A stretch of DNA of 64,000 bases from Paludibacter sp. Its GTDB lineage: Bacteria > Bacteroidota > Bacteroidia > Bacteroidales > Paludibacteraceae. The number at the start of each line of letters is the position of its first letter. The stretch's first letter is position 1. Made by a program: the position numbers and the translations under genes. Where the stretch lies: the NCBI GenBank assembly GCA_024710005.1, contig JANJVQ010000031.1:1-64000 (forward strand), read 5' to 3'. Below the pieces are notes generated by a model. That model made no database searches, was not told the origin of the DNA, and saw only the letters and a program-made list of their open reading frames with translations. Shown in pieces: positions 4,336 through 13,994 of the stretch.

Positions 4336-4803
4336 CTATTTTTTACTGAATCTGGCTGTAAAATCCTTCATCTCACCATCTTCCAACATGTAAAACCGCT
4401 GATTGGTATCCGGAGAATCCAACCCGCCCAACTTTTCAACATAGGGTCCGAGTTTAATATAGTCGAAACTACCGGCAGCACAATGCTCCGGCAGTTTTGG
4501 TTTTCCTGAATACCAGGCTGTTTTCAAGCGATTACGGGATATTGTCCGGATATAAAGCGAAAGCCTTTCCACTGCCTGCGGATCGGCATCGCCCCCCATG
4601 AAACAAACGCAGGTAATGGCATCGCCATATCTGGCAAGAAGTTTATTAATCGCCTTTTCATCAAGCCTTGCTCCGGTATCTTCCTGCAAATGGGGACTAT
4701 GACATCCCTTGCAGCCATTGGGACAGTTCGAGAGGTTGATGGCAAGCGTCACTTCACCGGGGACTTCCTGAAAAACAATATTATAACTGAGAAATCGTAG
4801 CAT
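4336..4803 (-). CDS. nrdG: Anaerobic ribonucleotide reductase activating protein
   Basis: 155-aa radical-SAM activase that generates the glycyl radical on NrdD using SAM and a 4Fe-4S cluster. The cluster ligands are Cys27, Cys31 and Cys34 in NCPNGCKGCHS (CX3CX2C), placed near the N-terminus as is usual for NrdG. FMGGDAD (about 69-75) matches the SAM-contacting glycine motif. Its start overlaps the end of nrdD by 23 bp, so the two are translationally coupled, and it shares nrdD's cobalamin-riboswitch leader. The length is typical of the family. Confidence 0.95.
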   Translation of the reverse strand: MLRFLSYNIVFQEVPGEVTLAINLSNCPNGCKGCHSPHLQEDTGARLDEKAINKLLARYGDAITCVCFMGGDADPQAVERLSLYIRTISRNRLKTAWYSGKPKLPEHCAAGSFDYIKLGPYVEKLGGLDSPDTNQRFYMLEDGEMKDFTARFSKK

Positions 4804-6871
4804 AATGTCTTTTTGATGCTTCTACCTGTCTGCTTTCGGAAAAATTACTTACGCGTTTCATATACCCGATGATGCGGGTCAGGTAATCCAGATTACGGCT
4901 TTTGCAAACCGGACATTCCTTCAGGTTATTTTTGTCGATATGTCCGCAGTCGTTACAAACTGTATTCGGGATATTAAAGGTGAAATAGTTACACCCTTCC
5001 TGAATGGCCACCTTCAACAACTGCTTGTATTGCTGCTGACTCAGATGTTCATCTAAATTCAGGTGTAATGCTGAACCACCCGTTAGGTGTTCGATGTATT
5101 TTCGTCCGTGCAACCTGAATTTATCAATAATATTCAGCGATTCATCCTCCACGATGTAGAAATAACTGTTGTAACAATCCCGGTTCGATTTGAATCCATC
5201 CCGTTTGTCCCATTTGGCATGTTTTACGCCCACGTTTTCGGCCGGAATCATTTCGCAATTGAACATTACATCTTTCGTGCGGTATTTTTTGTTGTACGAT
5301 TCAATCAGTCCGAGTACCTCCTGCACAAACAACGAGTACCTTGGGTTATCATTAATTTCAACACCCAGAAATTCAGCAGCTTCCACCAAACCATTCACAC
5401 CAATGGTCAGGTATTGACGGCTCATGTTGATATATCCTGCATCGAACAAAGGAAGCATACCCTTCTCATGCATGTATTTCAGGTTTTCGTTGTAAGCCAC
5501 CTGCACTTTATGCACCAAATCCACCACTTCTTCGAGAAAAAAATGATAATGCATACCCCTTCGGGCAGCATGCTGGATGCATCGGTTCAGGTTGATAGTC
5601 AGCACACTTTTGGAACCCGTAGAAACACCCCCGGCACCCAGTGTATAACTAAAACCATTATCGGTAATCTCGTTACGCAGCCGGCAACAACTGCTCAGCG
5701 AATCGGCATTGTCGCTCATATAGGTAAAAAACGAATGTCCTTCCGCGTACATTTCAGCCGTAAAATCACCGTATTCCTTGTCCTTCACCTCTCCGTTTTC
5801 ACTCAGCAAAGCCATTGTTTCCACGGGGAATGTCAGCACCGTTTTCGTACGCTCCTGGTTAAACCATTTCATGAAACGTTTCTGAAGCCAGTTCAGCGAA
5901 TCCCAATGCGGCTTGCTTCCATTCGGGAACACGAAGTTTTCAAACAAACTATTGAAATAATACCGGTCATAATACGAGATATTCCAGAACACCGCCTGAA
6001 AATTCCTGGCTCCGGTCGGTTGATTGATGGAATACACGATCTGTTCGAAATAATCAGTAATAACCTTGTCCAGCGTGCGTTGCTTCTTCGACAAATCAAC
6101 AATTTTATCTGATTCAAGATAATAATCATCCCCAAATTCCAACCCGATAAAATAATTCATGTACATCAGGAATTCCGGGGTAGCACAAGCTCCGCTCAAC
6201 ATACTCGAAACCATGAATACCATGTTGATAAAACCTCCGCAAAACGACTTGAGGTTGGTAGGCGCTTTCGAATTTCCACCGATAGAAGTCGTACCACCAA
6301 TCAACCAGGGATACATGGTAATGCTGGCGCAGTAATTAGCCAGACTGGTTTCGTCGTTTTTATAGATATAATGGTTGTTCAGCAAATCGATATAACGATC
6401 TGCGATTTCTTTTCCGTACATCTCTTTGATGCGATCGGTAAGCATCCGGCGGTTCAGGCGGATAAAATTCGATTTGGGTAATTCGCCGATGAGTGTCGCC
6501 ATATTTTTGTTTTCCACATTGGCATTGGCATCGTATTTACTTCCCGAGGCAGCATTGCGGGCATTGCAATAGTCCATCAGAAACTCCAGCTTATCACGCA
6601 CCTCCCTGTCTTCGAGGTGTTTCTGACGATACAACATGTACGATTTCGCCACCGCGTAATACCGTTCCGACATCAGCGCGATTTCCACCTGATTCTGAAT
6701 TTCTTCCACCGTGACATCCTGCGTGATGTTCACCCGGCAAAGGATATTCGCGATGACTTCCTCTGTCGCGTAAGTCCCTACCGATAAAAATGCTTTCCTG
6801 ATCGCACTTTTGATTTTTTCAATCGAAAAAGCTTCTTTTTTCCCGTCTCTCTTGATAATGAATGTTTCCAT
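4781..6871 (-). CDS. nrdD: Anaerobic (class III) ribonucleoside-triphosphate reductase
   Basis: 696-aa oxygen-sensitive enzyme making dNTP precursors without oxygen. An ATP-cone allosteric domain occupies about residues 3-90 (FIIKRDGKKEAFSIEKIK). The catalytic barrel follows. The C-terminal zinc site has two CX2C pairs (CNDC and CPVC). The radical-bearing glycine is probably Gly669 in TRIIGYMKR, about 27 residues from the end. It overlaps nrdG by 23 bp. A cobalamin riboswitch about 170 nt upstream on the same strand implies repression when B12 is plentiful, which makes sense if the cell also has a B12-dependent class II reductase elsewhere in the genome. Confidence 0.96.
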   Translation of the reverse strand: METFIIKRDGKKEAFSIEKIKSAIRKAFLSVGTYATEEVIANILCRVNITQDVTVEEIQNQVEIALMSERYYAVAKSYMLYRQKHLEDREVRDKLEFLMDYCNARNAASGSKYDANANVENKNMATLIGELPKSNFIRLNRRMLTDRIKEMYGKEIADRYIDLLNNHYIYKNDETSLANYCASITMYPWLIGGTTSIGGNSKAPTNLKSFCGGFINMVFMVSSMLSGACATPEFLMYMNYFIGLEFGDDYYLESDKIVDLSKKQRTLDKVITDYFEQIVYSINQPTGARNFQAVFWNISYYDRYYFNSLFENFVFPNGSKPHWDSLNWLQKRFMKWFNQERTKTVLTFPVETMALLSENGEVKDKEYGDFTAEMYAEGHSFFTYMSDNADSLSSCCRLRNEITDNGFSYTLGAGGVSTGSKSVLTINLNRCIQHAARRGMHYHFFLEEVVDLVHKVQVAYNENLKYMHEKGMLPLFDAGYINMSRQYLTIGVNGLVEAAEFLGVEINDNPRYSLFVQEVLGLIESYNKKYRTKDVMFNCEMIPAENVGVKHAKWDKRDGFKSNRDCYNSYFYIVEDESLNIIDKFRLHGRKYIEHLTGGSALHLNLDEHLSQQQYKQLLKVAIQEGCNYFTFNIPNTVCNDCGHIDKNNLKECPVCKSRNLDYLTRIIGYMKRVSNFSESRQVEASKRHYATISQL

Positions 6872-6900
6872 TTTGAAATATAATTTAATGATGATGATTC

Positions 6901-6933
6901 AAACCTGTCAGGTTTTAAAAACCTGACAGGTTT
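6901..6933. repeat. 33-nt palindromic repeat, copy 1
   Basis: Near-perfect palindrome with two 16-nt arms around one base; the core is ACCTGTCAGG / CCTGACAGGT. The same core recurs at 7398-7430 and 11473-11505. This copy starts AAACC where the others start AGACC. It lies in the nrdD leader between the cobalamin aptamer and the start codon, so any hairpin forms in the nrdD mRNA. No T-run follows on the minus strand, which argues against a simple terminator. Confidence 0.85.
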
Positions 6934-7042
6934 ATCGGATTATTCAACGAGATTATAAATTTCAAGAGAAGAAAGGAAATTATTCCGCAACAAAGCAGCC
7001 ACAGAATCCTTCGCTTTTCTCCCGAAAGCTACGAATCAATGA

Positions 7043-7231
7043 CATGCGGCAGGTCTTCTGACTTGTTCCGGTTTCGAACGGCCTTCCCGGTAATTTACCA
7101 GTGGCAGGGGTTGTTCTCCACCCTATTTCCGGAAGAAAACTCAAGCTTTCCTCCGGGGAACTTACAGCTACGGGGATAGCTCCCGATTTTCACGGGATTC
7201 CCTTTTAATCCGGTTTTATCCGGAACCGTAT
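7043..7231 (-). ncRNA. Cobalamin (B12) riboswitch upstream of nrdDG
   Basis: Read on the minus strand the region has the conserved blocks of the AdoCbl/cobalamin aptamer in order. These are a GGTTCCGG-type 5' stem (about 7221-7229), GGGAATCCCGTGAAAATCGG (about 7185-7204), CCCCGTAGCTGTAA (about 7166-7179), and the B12-box AGTCAGAAGACCTGCC (7048-7063). The next gene on this strand is nrdD, about 170 nt away. No riboswitch blocks are visible on the plus strand, so the rightward TonB-receptor unit is not its target. The rest of the 645-bp gap holds two copies of the 33-nt palindrome and the promoter box. Confidence 0.92.
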
Positions 7232-7237
7232 GCGATG

Positions 7238-7245
7238 CAAATATA
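7238..7245 (-). promoter_or_regulatory. -7 promoter box of the nrdD riboswitch transcript
   Basis: The minus strand reads TATATTTG, matching TAnnTTTG, immediately before the 5' end of the cobalamin aptamer. This places the transcription start near 7231. A TTTG at 7269-7272 could be the -33 element, with a slightly long spacer. Confidence 0.6.
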
Positions 7246-7397: not shown

Positions 7398-7430
7398 AGA
7401 CCTGTCAGGTTTTAAAAACCTGACAGGTCT
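7398..7430. repeat. 33-nt palindromic repeat, copy 2
   Basis: Same 33-nt palindrome as at 11473-11505 (arms start AGACCTGTCAGG), including similar flanking bases (TCTAATNCCA on the right). It lies 87 bp upstream of the His-rich small gene and behind the nrdD promoter, so it belongs to neither transcript clearly. Confidence 0.85.
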
Positions 7431-7940: not shown

Positions 7941-8045
7941 AACCACAAAAGGTGCAAAAGTGTCATCTTGCGACAAATGTGCTCCAATATTAATATGCAC
8001 TTTCTTTTGAGATTCCTTTTGTCTTCTTTTGTGCCTTTTGTGGTT
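7941..8045. repeat. MITE-like long inverted repeat
   Basis: 20-nt arms at 7941-7960 and 8026-8045 are inverted copies with 18 of 20 positions matching (AACCACAAAAGGTGCAAAAG against CTTTTGTGCCTTTTGTGGTT). Further complementary patches lie inside. The roughly 105-bp unit fills most of the gap between the His-rich gene and the TonB receptor start at 8059. It encodes nothing evident. It could be a non-autonomous element or a large mRNA hairpin. Confidence 0.6.
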
Positions 8046-8058
8046 CAAAAAATTATAT

Positions 8059-10347
8059 ATGAAACACTTATTATTTTTCGCTATAGCTTTATTCAGTCTG
8101 ACATCATACGGGCAAAGAAAAACCGACTCCAATATTGTCGGAGACGTAAAAGATTCAAAAACAGGGGAGCACATTCCCTACATCAACATAACTATCAACA
8201 ACACAGTGATCGGCACCACCACCGATGCAACAGGACATTACTATCTTAAGAACCTGCCAACCGGCACTTACACGCTAAAGGTAAGCGGAGTCGGGTATAA
8301 ATCCGTTGAGAAAGAAATCATACTGGAATCGGGCAAAACGATTGAGGTGAATTTTCTGACAGAAGAAAGCTCTTTGTCCTTAAACGAAGTGGTGGTCAGC
8401 GCCAACCGCAACGAAACAAACCGCAGAGAGGCTTCTGTAGTAGTAGGAGTTGTGAGTCCGAAGATATTCGCTGCGACCAACTCTGTTTGCATTGCCGACG
8501 GGCTCAACTTTCAACCCGGCCTGCGCGTGGAAAACAACTGCAACAACTGCGGATTCACCCAGATACGTATCAACGGATTAGAGGGTCCATACTCCCAAAT
8601 TCTTATCGACAGCCGTCCGATTTTCAGCGCTTTGTCGGGCGTTTATGGTTTGGAACAAATTCCGGTAAACATGATAGAAAGGGTTGAGGTAGTGCGTGGC
8701 GGAGGCTCGGCTTTGTATGGCTCCAATGCCATTGCCGGCACCATCAATATAATAACTAAAGAAGCACTCAATAACTCATTTACGGCCGGTTACAATTACG
8801 AAAGAATTGGTGGCACAGCGTCCGACAATGCCATCAACCTGAATTCCTCCATGGTGAGCGACGACAACAAAGCCGGCATGTATTTATACGGTTCCTATCG
8901 CAATCGCCTGCCTTACGACCACAATGGTGATGGTTTTTCGGAGGTAACAAAACTTCTGAACCACACCATGGGAATGCGTTCGTATTACCGACTTAGTTCA
9001 CAAAGCAAACTGACACTGGAATACCATAACATCCACGAATTCAGACGCGGCGGCAATGATTTCCACTTGCAACCGCATCAAACCGACATTACCGAACAGG
9101 TTGAGCATGAGACTAATGGCGGTGGAATTGCTTACAACTGGTACAGTCCCGATGCCAAACAAAAGCTGAACGTTTACACTTCGCTGCAACAAGTACTTCG
9201 TCAGAGCTATTACGGCGCAGGTCAGAATCCCGATGCGTATGGCAATACCGACAACCTGACTTCAGTAACCGGTGCGCAATACGTATATAATTTCCAAAAT
9301 TTACTTTTTATGCCATCTGAGTTGACTGTTGGTTCGGAGTATCAATATGATGATCTACACGACAGGATGCCGGGATACGGCAGAGACATCAAACAAACCA
9401 CCCGTGTGGCAGGATTTTTTCTTCAGAACGAGTGGAAAAACAAGGATATGAATATTTTGTTGGGTGGACGACTTGACAAACACAACCTGCTCGACAAAGC
9501 AGTTTTCAGTCCACGCGTCACCCTGAAATATAATTTCACTCCTGATCTTAACTGGCGGGGCTCTTATGCAGCCGGGTTCCGTGCACCACAAGCTTTCGAG
9601 GAAGATTTGCATTTAGATGCTGCCGGCGGTGTAATGAAACTTATCGAGATAGCTGACGACCTGCGTCCGGAATACTCTCATAGTCTGAGCACTTCATTAG
9701 ATTATTATTTCAAGTTGGGAAACACGGAAGTTAACCTGCTGGCAGAAGGTTTCTACACCCACATCAATGACATTTTCATCCTGACAGAAACAGGTCTGAG
9801 TCCCAATGGGCACATCATCGTGGAGCGCCAGAATGGTTCTGGTGGTCAGGTAAGTGGAATCAATTTTGAAGGTAAAATTGCCCCATCTACCAGACTACAG
9901 CTTCAGTTTGGCTACACACTGCAACAAAGTCTGTACAACGAACCCGAACAATGGTCGGACGATATTAATGTTGCACCGGAAAGACGTATGCTGCGCACGC
10001 CGAACAACTACGGATATTTTTCACTGTCGGCAAATCTTACCCGCAAACTGTTGATTAACGCTACAGGGACTTACACCGGCAGTATGCTGGCTCCGCATTT
10101 CGCAGGCTACATCGCAACTGACCGGCTTGAAACCACGCCGGAATTTATGGATGTAAATCTGAAGGCTACATACGACTTGAAGCTGAATGGAATCAGTTTA
10201 CAACTTAGTGGTGGAGTAAAAAATATTTTCAACAGCTATCAAAAGGATTTGGATGTCGGACCCTTGCGGGATGCAGGATATGTATACGGACCATCGATTC
10301 CGCGAACCGTGTTCATTTCGCTCAAGTTCAGCAATCTGACATTTTAA
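8059..10347 (+). CDS. TonB-dependent receptor with carboxypeptidase-like N-domain and CNNC plug motif
   Basis: 762-aa outer-membrane receptor. The start at 8059 is chosen over 8029 because MKHLLFFAIALFSLTSYGQ is then a clean signal peptide and the extra 10 residues lie in the inverted repeat. A CarboxypepD_reg-like beta domain (about 25-105) precedes the plug. The plug contains NNCNNCGFTQIRINGLEG, with two cysteines three apart, then VEVVRGGGSALYGSNAIAG. The 22-strand barrel follows and ends ISLKFSNLTF. Unlike SusC there is no SusD partner. The neighbouring His-rich protein and the Cys pair suggest a metal or metal-complex ligand; this is inference. The gene ends 5 bp from the convergent btuG-like gene. 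Confidence 0.92.
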   Translation: MKHLLFFAIALFSLTSYGQRKTDSNIVGDVKDSKTGEHIPYINITINNTVIGTTTDATGHYYLKNLPTGTYTLKVSGVGYKSVEKEIILESGKTIEVNFLTEESSLSLNEVVVSANRNETNRREASVVVGVVSPKIFAATNSVCIADGLNFQPGLRVENNCNNCGFTQIRINGLEGPYSQILIDSRPIFSALSGVYGLEQIPVNMIERVEVVRGGGSALYGSNAIAGTINIITKEALNNSFTAGYNYERIGGTASDNAINLNSSMVSDDNKAGMYLYGSYRNRLPYDHNGDGFSEVTKLLNHTMGMRSYYRLSSQSKLTLEYHNIHEFRRGGNDFHLQPHQTDITEQVEHETNGGGIAYNWYSPDAKQKLNVYTSLQQVLRQSYYGAGQNPDAYGNTDNLTSVTGAQYVYNFQNLLFMPSELTVGSEYQYDDLHDRMPGYGRDIKQTTRVAGFFLQNEWKNKDMNILLGGRLDKHNLLDKAVFSPRVTLKYNFTPDLNWRGSYAAGFRAPQAFEEDLHLDAAGGVMKLIEIADDLRPEYSHSLSTSLDYYFKLGNTEVNLLAEGFYTHINDIFILTETGLSPNGHIIVERQNGSGGQVSGINFEGKIAPSTRLQLQFGYTLQQSLYNEPEQWSDDINVAPERRMLRTPNNYGYFSLSANLTRKLLINATGTYTGSMLAPHFAGYIATDRLETTPEFMDVNLKATYDLKLNGISLQLSGGVKNIFNSYQKDLDVGPLRDAGYVYGPSIPRTVFISLKFSNLTF

Positions 10348-10352
10348 TGGGC

Positions 10353-11438
10353 TCAACGAAATACGACCTTATTGGGATTTAGTCCGACTTCCTTTAACCT
10401 GAACTTTAACTGCCCCGATTGATTGAAACACAACACATCTCCCCAGGTCAGATAGGATTTCCCATCGGTGATATAAACATCTCCGTTGATCGGATTGACA
10501 TCAATACCAAATGGAGTGGTTAATGTGGTACCATCTGTTATAAACCGGTCGGTAATCAAAGTTTCCGTTTTACAATCGAAAGTCATAATTTGATTCCGAC
10601 CGGTACTATAATCGTAATGATACATGTATGCCGTGTCGTTGTGAATTGTGAAATTCAGCAAACTGAAATCTTCGAAATCCTGTACCACTTCATCGGTCAC
10701 CGAGCTGATGCGATGAAAGCGGTAGGCTGTACTGCCATAGTTACCACGCGTTACCACATACACATCACCTTCGCTATCAGCCTTAATCTTATACGGATTG
10801 ATCCCGACGGAGATTTGCCTTATTTCCTGAAAAGAGGCAATATCAATAACTGAAACGGTATTATCATAGTTTGGAAAATTCAATCCGCCAGAATTGGAAA
10901 CGTAAATTTTACCATTTGCAATGCAGATGCCATCCGGATTTCTCCCACAATTTACCAAACCTTCAATCTGAAGGGTTGTGGTGTCAATTTTTGCTACCGT
11001 GCCATCGAAAGAACAAACGTATGCTTTGCCTTCATGAAAATCTATGTACCGTGGTTGTCGTGCCATTCCCTGACCATTAAAAAGTGAAATTTGTTTCAAC
11101 GACAGTCCGGTTCCTGCATCCAGCACTTCAATCTGACTGGAGACATTCACCACTACATAGAGTTTTGAACCATACAGTCCCATGTCGTTCGCTGTATCGC
11201 CGAGTCCCCGCTTATTCGCAGTTAAAAAATAATCGGAAGATTTTGCTCCGGCACTAAAGTCATACATGGCCAGACTGCTGTTGTTCAGATTGATCAGACC
11301 TTCCGAAAGCACAAAAATCCGTGTTGCTTCAGTCACAGGCAGATCATCCTCTGTTCGCAGTTTGTCGTGCATATCATCGCAGGATGCAATGAGGATGATG
11401 AGCGTTAAAACTGAAATATGTAAAATATATTTAATCAT
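10353..11438 (-). CDS. btuG: BtuG-like surface lipoprotein, beta-propeller cobalamin binder
   Basis: 361-aa lipoprotein. The signal peptide ends in a lipobox (IASCDD, Cys at about 20). The mature part is built of repeated blades typical of YncE/DUF5074-like seven-bladed propellers (AKIDTTTLQIEG, VSVIDIASFQEIRQISV, NPDGICIANGKIYVSN). In Bacteroides, BtuG is a propeller of this kind encoded beside btuB that binds B12 very tightly at the cell surface and hands it to BtuB. Here the gene follows btuB in the same direction, 97 bp downstream, under the cobalamin riboswitch at 13721. Assignment rests on fold and context; the gap contains the third 33-nt palindrome. Confidence 0.8.
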   Translation of the reverse strand: MIKYILHISVLTLIILIASCDDMHDKLRTEDDLPVTEATRIFVLSEGLINLNNSSLAMYDFSAGAKSSDYFLTANKRGLGDTANDMGLYGSKLYVVVNVSSQIEVLDAGTGLSLKQISLFNGQGMARQPRYIDFHEGKAYVCSFDGTVAKIDTTTLQIEGLVNCGRNPDGICIANGKIYVSNSGGLNFPNYDNTVSVIDIASFQEIRQISVGINPYKIKADSEGDVYVVTRGNYGSTAYRFHRISSVTDEVVQDFEDFSLLNFTIHNDTAYMYHYDYSTGRNQIMTFDCKTETLITDRFITDGTTLTTPFGIDVNPINGDVYITDGKSYLTWGDVLCFNQSGQLKFRLKEVGLNPNKVVFR

Positions 11439-11472: not shown

Positions 11473-11505
11473 AGACCTGTCAGGTTTTAAAAACCTGACA
11501 GGTCT
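11473..11505. repeat. 33-nt palindromic repeat, copy 3
   Basis: Same palindrome as at 7398-7430, base for base in the arms. It lies between btuB and btuG on their shared transcript, where a hairpin could modulate relative expression by partial termination or by protecting mRNA ends. Confidence 0.85.
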
Positions 11506-11535: not shown

Positions 11536-13596
11536 CTAAAAACTTAAACTAACTGTTGTCCTATATGACCTCCCCGGCATCGGAAACCACTTCACCACGG
11601 CATAGTTTTCATCCAGTAAATTCAAGGCTTCCACTTGTAAGGACAAGACCCAATTTTTCAACTTCACATCCCGGGAGGCAGAAATTCCGTGGTCGGCATA
11701 ACCCGGCAAGCGGTTTTCGGCATAATTCTGATATCCTGCATAGCGTGCACCTGACCACAACAAGGAATACGAAACATTCACCCAGGGAGTTTCAACACCC
11801 AATCTTCCCGAACCTGAAACTCGTGGCGTATACGGAATTTGATGCCCGTAAGTATTACTCCCCGGCATTGTCACATCCAACGCCCGTTGATAAGTGTATG
11901 TACCACCCAGCAAGACAGCTATTTTATCATTTACAGACAGGTTTGTTTCAACCGTCAAATCAAGTCCGTCAACCTGCACCTTACCCAGATTCACCATACT
12001 CCAGATAAAGATATTTTTTGTCGGCAAAGCCACAATTTTATCTTTTACGTAGTTGCGATAGGCATCTACAGTCACAGAAAACAAAGGCATCCAATCGGCC
12101 AGACTCAACGCGTAAGTAAGTCCCGCGTTCAGTTGATCAGTGGTTTCCGGCTGTAAGCCGACATTACCCGTGCGGGCATAATACAAATCGTTGAAACTCG
12201 GCAAACGAAAAATATTTTTGTAGAAAAAACGAACCCTGATATCCTGGTCGGCAAAAGGCTTATAAGCCACACTCACGTAGGGTGATAATCGTCGGTGACT
12301 GTCCGGAGCTTCTCCCACCTGTACTTTATCATTGACCATTGTTGATAGCAAACTCGCCGTTGCCAGCAGTTCGTCAGACACAAACTTAGCCGCCAGAACA
12401 GAAAGCAGACTATTTCGTACAGGTTTGGCAAAAGCATCACTCAGTTCCGGCGTTTCAAATCGGGCCAGCATCTGATTGACAAAACCATCCGCAGCAAATG
12501 AAAAAGACAAATTCCGGGAAGCATGGTAAAGCATGGCAACTGAACCATAATACTCGTTCTGGCGGAAAACACTTTCCATCCGTCCCAATTCATTCAAATA
12601 AGTGGTGTCGGAATAGTGCATATAACCATGGTGGTATTTGGCATTCAGCTGCATCGAAAAAAGATCTGACAAATCTTTCTCATAATGTCCCTGCACGAAA
12701 AATGTCCTGTCCTCCATCCGCTGAGATGAAAAATTATCGGTATTATATAAAATCGTTGCGCCCGGCAATCCCCTTTCTGAGGTATAAAGATAAGCTTTCA
12801 GGTAAGCTGACTCCCTTTCCGTGAGATTCGCATACAGCGTAGTTTCAAGTCGCAGGTTACTCACATCCGTGTTTTTTCTGATTTCATTTGATGTCAGACC
12901 TGAACCGAGATAGCTGTAATCCAGCAAATAGGGGTACTGTCCATGAGCCGCCAGCCATTCTCCACTTAAATCAGCAGAAAACACCCGATTGATTTTGTGT
13001 TGCAGGCGGAAAGTCGGATTGAAAAGTCCGAATGAACCGCTTTTAAGGCCAACCTTACCCTGCCATGTTTTCTTATCTTCAAACCGTGGGGTAACTGTAC
13101 GAATCTGGAGTAATGCAGCTGAAGCAAACATACGGGCAGGTTGAAAAATCTGGTCACTCTGACCGTTATTCAACGCGATCATCTCCACGTTATCGAGCGA
13201 AAAACGGCCGATATCAATTTGCCCGGTCTGGCAATCGGTCAGCGTTATGCCATCGTAACTCACCGCTGTATGGGTTGCTCCGAGACTCCGTACCGAAACA
13301 GTCTTCAAACCACCGATACCTCCGTAATCACGCAACGACACCCCTGAAAAATGCCTGATTGCATCTGATACCTGCAGGGCATTCAGTTTAGTAAACTGTT
13401 TAGATGATAAAGTCTGAAAAGGCGCAGTAGTTCTGATTTCCGCTTTGCGATACTGCTCTGTGACGGTAACCTCTCCGATCCGGTAAGTTTTGGTGGTATC
13501 CAACTTCTCAACGGCATGTATATCATGCGGTTGTAACCAGCAGAACAGGGCACAACACAAACCGGTCAGCAATATTTCAACCCGGGAATCAGACAT
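11536..13596 (-). CDS. btuB: TonB-dependent cobalamin receptor BtuB
   Basis: 686-aa outer-membrane receptor for vitamin B12. A signal region (about 1-28) is followed by a TonB-box-like IGEVTVTEQ (about 40-48), the plug domain (RTTAPFQTLSSKQFTKLN onward) and a barrel ending YRTTVSLSF. The usual YGSNAIAG plug motif is replaced by a divergent QPARMFASAALLQIRT, as I would expect in the Bacteroidetes BtuB branch. The assignment is supported by the cobalamin riboswitch immediately upstream and by the btuG-like gene downstream. The start ATG is the first in frame after the riboswitch, leaving a leader of about 130 nt after the aptamer. Confidence 0.88.
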   Translation of the reverse strand: MSDSRVEILLTGLCCALFCWLQPHDIHAVEKLDTTKTYRIGEVTVTEQYRKAEIRTTAPFQTLSSKQFTKLNALQVSDAIRHFSGVSLRDYGGIGGLKTVSVRSLGATHTAVSYDGITLTDCQTGQIDIGRFSLDNVEMIALNNGQSDQIFQPARMFASAALLQIRTVTPRFEDKKTWQGKVGLKSGSFGLFNPTFRLQHKINRVFSADLSGEWLAAHGQYPYLLDYSYLGSGLTSNEIRKNTDVSNLRLETTLYANLTERESAYLKAYLYTSERGLPGATILYNTDNFSSQRMEDRTFFVQGHYEKDLSDLFSMQLNAKYHHGYMHYSDTTYLNELGRMESVFRQNEYYGSVAMLYHASRNLSFSFAADGFVNQMLARFETPELSDAFAKPVRNSLLSVLAAKFVSDELLATASLLSTMVNDKVQVGEAPDSHRRLSPYVSVAYKPFADQDIRVRFFYKNIFRLPSFNDLYYARTGNVGLQPETTDQLNAGLTYALSLADWMPLFSVTVDAYRNYVKDKIVALPTKNIFIWSMVNLGKVQVDGLDLTVETNLSVNDKIAVLLGGTYTYQRALDVTMPGSNTYGHQIPYTPRVSGSGRLGVETPWVNVSYSLLWSGARYAGYQNYAENRLPGYADHGISASRDVKLKNWVLSLQVEALNLLDENYAVVKWFPMPGRSYRTTVSLSF

Positions 13597-13720
13597 AAAT
13601 TTACAATCTATTTGTTTAATTTATAACCAAATAGCTTGCAAGAAAAGAAAATCAACAAAGCAAGGTGAGATGCAATATTGGTTTTGGCTCTATCCTCGAA
13701 AGCTCTAAAACATAACTTGC

Positions 13721-13955
13721 ATGGGCAGGTCTTCTGACTAACTCCCGTTTTGAACGCCTTCCCGGCTTCCCCTAAACCCTCCAAAAGAGGGGTACAAGAG
13801 CCAGTGGCAAAAGTGTTGTTCAATACGTTTTCCCTTTCTTAGCCTCCCCTTCGGGGAAGTTTTGAGGGACTTAGAGCTTACAGCAGCGGGACTGTTCAGG
13901 ACTTTCACCTGATTCCCTATTACTCGTCTCAGTTACAAAACATCAACGAACCAAT
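13721..13955 (-). ncRNA. Cobalamin riboswitch upstream of btuB-btuG
   Basis: On the minus strand the blocks AGGGAATCAGGTGAAAGTCC (about 13897-13916), CAGTCCCGCTGCTGTAAG (about 13878-13895) and the B12-box AGTCAGAAGACCTGCC (13724-13739) occur in aptamer order. The variable arm between them is long and can fold into extra hairpins (for example TTCCCCGAAGGGGA near 13845-13860). It fills most of the 382-bp gap between the ECF sigma gene and btuB. The boundary at 13955 is approximate. Confidence 0.92.
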
Positions 13956-13962
13956 GCAGCGA

Positions 13963-13994
13963 CAAAAATAGAAAGATTTTACCTTATTTCCAAA
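13963..13994 (-). promoter_or_regulatory. Promoter of btuBG, overlapping the end of the sigma gene
   Basis: On the minus strand a TTTG (13991-13994) and TATTTTTG (13963-13970) are separated by 20 bp, close to the Bacteroidetes -33/-7 consensus. The -33 element lies inside the last codons of the ECF sigma gene, whose stop is at 13979-13981. btuB therefore has its own promoter and need not depend on read-through from the sigma gene. Confidence 0.65.

Follow-up and report, generated by a model that had tools for sequence, protein, structure and literature searches.

In Streptomyces, the class I ribonucleotide reductase (RNR) genes nrdABS are governed by a vitamin B12 (cobalamin) riboswitch, through which B12 represses this B12-independent enzyme in cells that also possess the B12-dependent class II reductase NrdJ. 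A comparable arrangement has been described for a class III enzyme: B12-elements precede nrdDG in Desulfovibrio vulgaris and Desulfuromonas, the genomes of which also encode NrdJ (PMC545781, published in 2004). More generally, isozymes of B12-dependent enzymes have been treated as a class of the cobalamin regulon, with Bacteroidaceae among the taxa considered, and the main text of that work does not contain "nrd" (PMC3766115). As for cobalamin riboswitches in Bacteroides thetaiotaomicron, most proteins of the uptake operons under their control rise when cobalamin is withheld (PMC12751083). Here we analyze a 64,000-nucleotide (nt) stretch of DNA from Paludibacter sp., a member of the Bacteroidales (assembly GCA_024710005.1, contig JANJVQ010000031.1, positions 1 to 64,000 of the forward strand; hereafter, the window), in which a cobalamin aptamer lies directly ahead of the class III genes nrdDG. 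We consider it probable, at roughly 0.8, that the leader (6872-7245) acts as a cobalamin riboswitch and lowers nrdDG expression when adenosylcobalamin suffices for NrdJ; the cell can then most likely switch between NrdDG and NrdJ according to B12 supply. The computed basis of this reading consists of the aptamer, its promoter box, the presence of NrdJ in the genome, the failure to find a class I small subunit there, and the co-occurrence of the riboswitch with NrdJ in relatives.

The nrdDG locus and its aptamer

The core of the locus comprises the following features of the window.

4336..4803, minus strand: nrdG, radical S-adenosylmethionine protein activating the class III RNR, 155 amino acids (TIGR02826, 166 bits, cut-off 151.7)
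4781..6871, minus strand: nrdD, class III anaerobic ribonucleoside-triphosphate reductase, 696 amino acids (TIGR02827, 959 bits)
7031..7245, minus strand: cobalamin riboswitch aptamer (RF00174, 110 bits, model positions 1-189 of 189)
7238..7245, minus strand: -7 promoter box TATATTTG of the Bacteroidota type, at the 5′ edge of the aptamer (pattern TAnnTTTG)

A sequence-only reading of this DNA had proposed a complete aptamer with its own -7 box in front of nrdD on the same strand, and had named a covariance-model search as a result that could overturn the proposal. The search bears the proposal out: the match to RF00174 is full length, with an E value of 1.2e-26 and a score far over the gathering score of 31.5. 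The aptamer is separated by 159 nt from nrdD, which is the next gene on the same strand and is followed by nrdG. NrdD and NrdG both score above curated cut-offs, identifying the pair as a class III RNR; NrdD contains NRDD and ATP-cone domains and has solved relatives (4u3e, 4coi), and NrdG scores slightly under the cut-off of Pfam Fer4_12.

Ribonucleotide reductases and B12 genes of the genome

The assembly (3.24 Mb in 36 contigs, 99.85% complete) also encodes a class II NrdJ (TIGR02504, 582 bits, cut-off 400). This enzyme had been predicted from the placement of the riboswitch alone, and its absence from the genome had been listed as a result that would count against the proposal. Because this nearly complete genome yielded no class I small subunit, NrdDG and NrdJ constitute a pair of B12-independent and B12-dependent reductases. 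Neither the B12-independent methionine synthase MetE nor the corrin gene CbiD, a single marker for de novo B12 synthesis, was found in the genome; with CbiD missing, de novo synthesis of B12 may be beyond this organism. A complete B12 pathway has been predicted in 0.6% of the species of the phylum (PMC6461909). Since the RNRs found are confined to classes II and III and B12 is possibly not made de novo, the supply of deoxyribonucleoside triphosphates would hang on the choice made by the leader, and the riboswitch would tie the synthesis of DNA precursors to B12 taken up from outside.

Distribution of the riboswitch among nrdD relatives

The best 80 of 303 confirmed nrdD relatives, all of them Bacteroidota according to their record titles, were scanned for cobalamin riboswitches (loci are given L numbers). 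The nearest NrdD records come from a Bacteroidetes metagenome-assembled genome (MAG; 99%) and from Paludibacter MAGs (98% and 97%). Three loci with less than 300 nt of upstream sequence and no match (L007, L047, and L058) could not be scored, leaving 77. A riboswitch lies directly upstream of nrdD on the same strand in 49 of these (that of L020 is cut by the contig end), and is thus common in this position among the relatives within Bacteroidales. NrdJ was detected over the cut-off in 61 of the 80 genomes and as a partial match in 2, and was not found in the remaining 17. All 49 riboswitch loci belong to genomes with NrdJ over the cut-off, those of Dysgonomonas hofstadii (L024) and Paludibacter sp. 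221 (L016), two cultured relatives, among them, and none of the 16 scoreable genomes without NrdJ has a riboswitch directly before nrdD; the 28 scoreable loci without one divide into 10 with NrdJ over the cut-off, 2 with a partial match, and these 16. With partial matches counted as present and kinship uncorrected, the association has a Fisher p of 2e-9. Fourteen of the 17 genomes without NrdJ contain cobalamin riboswitches that score over the cut-off at other places, so that the lack lies at nrdD. Single absences may be gaps, because most of the relatives' genomes are MAGs. The unscoreable locus L007 belongs to a genome, G001, which carries at the end of another contig an aptamer identical to the one described here over 215/215 positions.

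Among the leaders with a riboswitch, the pattern TAnnTTTG occurs at the 5′ edge of the aptamer in 45 of 49 (our own and 48 loci, L020 being excluded because its 5′ end is cut), whereas 200 mononucleotide shuffles gave 1.1 on average and never more than 5. Only 10 of the 49 have a TTG at -33 spacing, and our leader is not one of them. Upstream of the promoter, about 50 bases 5′ of the -7 box, many leaders carry a TGTTnATAA-like element (for example, L025, L026, and L033); a loose pattern for it matches 21 of the 49 leaders, often near -50, in an uncontrolled count. Control by NrdR was rejected, as NrdR was not found in the genome, and a different regulator may bind this element.

Within the genus, nrdD is an accessory gene, any NRDD protein being encoded in 11 of 40 genomes, our own included. 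Ten other genomes thus carry such a protein; one yielded no locus, and of the nine loci scanned, several of which repeat those among the 80 relatives, seven have a riboswitch directly upstream. The two others are L156, with the same upstream sequence as L011 (see below), and L157, the sequence of which begins 147 nt before the start, a case similar to L007.

Leaders without the aptamer and a second nrdD type

In one clade (L070, L072, L075, and L085), alignment to leaders with an aptamer (L084, L080, L068, L064, and L081) shows the aptamer missing in place; the promoter region is retained, as are the final bases ahead of the start. L070 keeps remnants of the platform as well as NrdJ; L072, L075, and L085 have no NrdJ. 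The remnants in L070, together with the tree, point to loss rather than gain of the aptamer. The leaders of this clade also retain sequence resembling the TGTTnATAA-like element.

Other loci counted as lacking a riboswitch are differently organized. In L011, where NrdJ is present, nrdD has no riboswitch of its own and stands, 15 nt after the preceding gene, as the last member of a same-strand run consisting of a riboswitch, BtuB1-like, BtuG1-like, and DUF4465 genes, other and DUF6580 genes, and then nrdD; this run is probably one operon. L041 and L042 have a riboswitch and an intervening gene upstream of nrdD, the gene of L041 encoding a DUF4465 protein, and in L059, from a genome without NrdJ, a riboswitch is located 2.6 kb upstream, ahead of a DUF4465 gene.

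Conversely, L149, from the same genus, encodes a class III reductase of a different type (TIGR02487, 574 bits; 22% identity to our NrdD), and its leader contains a full cobalamin aptamer, a TATCTTTG box, and a P13-like hairpin. That the same switch stands ahead of two non-orthologous class III enzymes within a single genus suggests that B12 control of class III RNR is selected for. We lean, by a narrow margin, towards the view that the nrdD riboswitch of Bacteroidales is a removable and reusable cassette, flanked by a fixed promoter on one side and the gene on the other; it would be missing in place chiefly where NrdJ was lost, and the same kind of leader is found before both types of reductase. 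Were this so, possession of NrdJ would decide whether the class III RNR can be gated by B12, and loss of the riboswitch would mark reliance on shared B12.

Expression platform

Downstream of the aptamer, the leader is predicted to offer two competing folds.

7166..7181, minus strand: P5 hairpin with loop L5 (UCCCCG), the kissing partner of L13
7005..7037, minus strand: P13 hairpin, a local fold with lower stem GAUUC/GGAUU, upper stem GCUUU/AAAGC, and loop L13 CGGGAGA (7024-7018)
6955..7032, minus strand: competing anti-P13 hairpin, the predicted ligand-free fold (minimum free energy -27.4 kcal/mol, z -3.95)
6963..6979, minus strand: pyrimidine strand UUUCCUUUCUUCUCUUG, which can pair with L13 and the 3′ side of P13
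6903..6931, no strand assigned: dispersed palindrome ACCTGTCAGGTTTTNAAAACCTGACAGGT, an insertion in the leader that is not considered to belong to the switch

With ligand bound, L5 of the aptamer would kiss L13 and hold P13; without it, the 3′ side of P13 and L13 would pair with the pyrimidine strand in the anti-P13 hairpin, and the gene would stay on. A 4-bp L5-L13 pairing is possible, by complementarity only, in 47 of the 50 scoreable leaders among 54 (our own, the 49, and L090, L094, L103, and L105). The compensating change from CCCG/CGGG to CCUG/CAGG (C-G to U-A) occurs in 6 leaders; the three failures (L090, L103, and L105) all have a CGAGG loop. When P13 was set by hand on 49 leaders and compared to 500 shuffles, more of its pairs were formed (64.4% versus 59.7%) and its covariation score was higher (0.281 versus 0.216). 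For our own leader, the free minimum free energy is -57.1 kcal/mol, and -52.4 with P13 forced; the anti-P13 fold is thus better by 4.7 kcal/mol, a gap that ligand and kissing loop would have to pay. Over 52 leaders, the anti-P13 pairing reaches a combined p of 0.001 with kin treated as independent.

Several results weigh against the proposed regulation. On the side of the distribution, NrdJ does not guarantee a riboswitch: of the 28 scoreable loci that have none, 12 belong to NrdJ-encoding genomes, 10 with a match over the cut-off and 2 with a partial one. When kinship is corrected for, by using pairs on supported branches of a tree of 81 NrdD proteins (our own and the 80), 4.1 of 5 pairs are concordant and none opposite, with a median p of 0.125, too few for significance. 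On the side of the platform, P13 pairs changed on both sides number 8, against 7.9 in shuffles; sliding P13 by +1 gives a covariation score of 0.312, above that of the hand-set helix; and RNAalifold returns no consensus P13 from the 49-row alignment. Nor is the anti-P13 pairing general: its signal over the 52 leaders is weak, with a mean z of -0.54. Six of the 52 fall below p 0.05 in this test; our own leader has a p of 0.10.

How P13 might turn the gene off

We give roughly even odds to the P13 state causing a premature stop of transcription, perhaps aided by Rho at the released pyrimidine strand. A stop of this kind is favored over masking of the start codon because the platform ends ~80 nt before the ATG and unlike repeats have been inserted between the two in near relatives (L008, L009, and L007/G001). 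Of 15 Gram-negative taxa, 10 are reported by TaRTLEt to have one or more transcriptionally active cobalamin riboswitches (PMC12121620).

The same riboswitch, with the same logic, could instead repress translation, P13 hiding the nrdD start in the manner of Escherichia coli btuB. Cobalamin riboswitches of Gram-negative bacteria were earlier predicted to be translational (Lennon and Batey, as cited in PMC12121620), and forcing P13 lowers the accessibility of the start codon in two leaders, L017 (by 0.31) and our near relative L009 (by 0.15). Across 53 leaders, however, accessibility is the same in both states (mean change -0.008; lower by more than 0.1 in 2, higher in 2), and in our own leader it passes only from 0.62 in the free fold to 0.58 with P13 forced. 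Furthermore, the distance from aptamer to start varies from 43 to 393 nt. Since the free folds and those with P13 forced do not differ overall, masking of the start codon was rejected as a general mechanism, and a translational off-step appears unlikely for this locus.

Much less probable still is a switch of opposite sign, in which a hairpin after P13 would act as a terminator formed without B12, P13 would block it, and B12 would raise nrdD. A terminator-like hairpin followed by a U run does occur after P13 in 10 of the 54 leaders, most clearly in L009, as against 0-4 in five mononucleotide shuffles, and it can share a strand with the lower stem of P13. However, no such hairpin was found in our own leader, the U runs of several leaders show complementarity to L13 and P13 as well, and induction by B12 of a B12-independent isozyme fits poorly with the co-occurrence of NrdJ and with the same type of riboswitch on the btu genes. 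At 10 of 54 leaders, our own not among them, an intrinsic terminator was also rejected as a general mechanism. Finally, that the aptamer is a leftover or part of an unrelated transcript, exerting no control over nrdD, is hardly credible: although 28 of the 77 scoreable relatives lack a riboswitch directly upstream, it lies here on the same strand as the next gene, with its own -7 box, recurs in 49 relatives with the L5-L13 pairing mostly kept, and is absent directly before nrdD where NrdJ is absent.

A dispersed palindrome and other insertions in the leader

An alternative fold involving 6901-6933 had been suggested as part of the switch. This suggestion did not hold: the segment is a dispersed palindrome that occurs at 23 places of the genome with up to 2 mismatches, the reversed control pattern being found at none, and in few nrdD leaders. 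Among the leaders compared, it is present only in our own, in L009 (= L154), and, with one mismatch, in L155. Unlike sequences take its place in near relatives, namely, another, long inverted repeat in L008 (NrdD 98% identical) and a third sequence in G001 (L007, L120). The leader may be a hot spot of insertion. Within the window, copies are located at 6903-6931, 7400-7428, and 11475-11503, that is, within 4.6 kb around nrdD and btuB1-btuG1; L009 also has three.

Other cobalamin riboswitches and B12-uptake genes

Three cobalamin riboswitches were found in the whole genome. The two besides the nrdDG leader, and the uptake genes behind one of them, are as follows.

10353..11438, minus strand: btuG1-like surface protein (367 bits to chain B of PDB 8blw, the entry that also contains BtuB1)
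11536..13596, minus strand: btuB1-like TonB-dependent B12 receptor (723 bits to chain A of PDB 8blw, the Vitamin B12 transporter BtuB1)
13707..13970, minus strand: second cobalamin riboswitch, ahead of btuB1-btuG1 (RF00174, 82 bits, full length)
11661-11890 of contig C6: third cobalamin riboswitch, preceding a gene for a DUF4465 protein

As the other two precede btuB1-btuG1 and the DUF4465 gene, nrdDG has the same type of B12 sensor as the B12-uptake genes, in agreement with the link to nearby uptake genes under a second riboswitch that had been drawn from the window alone. In the platform of the second riboswitch (13597-13706), the P13 loop is CGAGG rather than CGGG, as in L090, L103, and L105, and the kissing pairing is therefore expected to be weaker or shifted. 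Two more TonB-dependent receptors flank the region (251-2056 and 8029-10347); both match the B12-receptor family TIGR01779 under the cut-off, and both lack a cobalamin riboswitch immediately upstream.

Comparison with known systems

The nrdD riboswitch of Bacteroidales, found among the scoreable relatives only together with NrdJ and with a promoter kept after the aptamer is gone, provides a natural test of the retention or loss of isozyme riboswitches, and its distribution would predict from sequence which Bacteroidales lower their class III RNR under plentiful B12. With Streptomyces nrdABS the locus shares a B12-independent RNR beside NrdJ; there the enzyme is of class I and the host belongs to the Actinobacteria, and here the enzyme is of class III and repression is predicted. 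In the literature searched, which left many subscription papers and supplementary tables outside, we saw neither the same arrangement in Bacteroidales, nor its co-occurrence there with NrdJ, nor aptamers missing in place, and do not claim their absence from print. The uptake operons of B. thetaiotaomicron belong to the same phylum and are governed by the same riboswitch family, the targets being uptake genes there and an RNR here (PMC12751083). The sequence-only reading had regarded B12 control of B12-independent reductases as known for some class I enzymes; the restriction to class I falls away, control of class III nrdDG having already been proposed (PMC545781). Because that work states that B12-elements precede nrdDG, the arrangement is of an already known kind, and the likeness to D. 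vulgaris and Desulfuromonas is close: a cobalamin riboswitch before class III nrdDG in a genome with NrdJ, in Deltaproteobacteria there and in Bacteroidales here. Beyond that case, the present locus adds the distribution of the riboswitch over 77 relatives, aptamers missing in place, and a second type of nrdD behind the same kind of switch.

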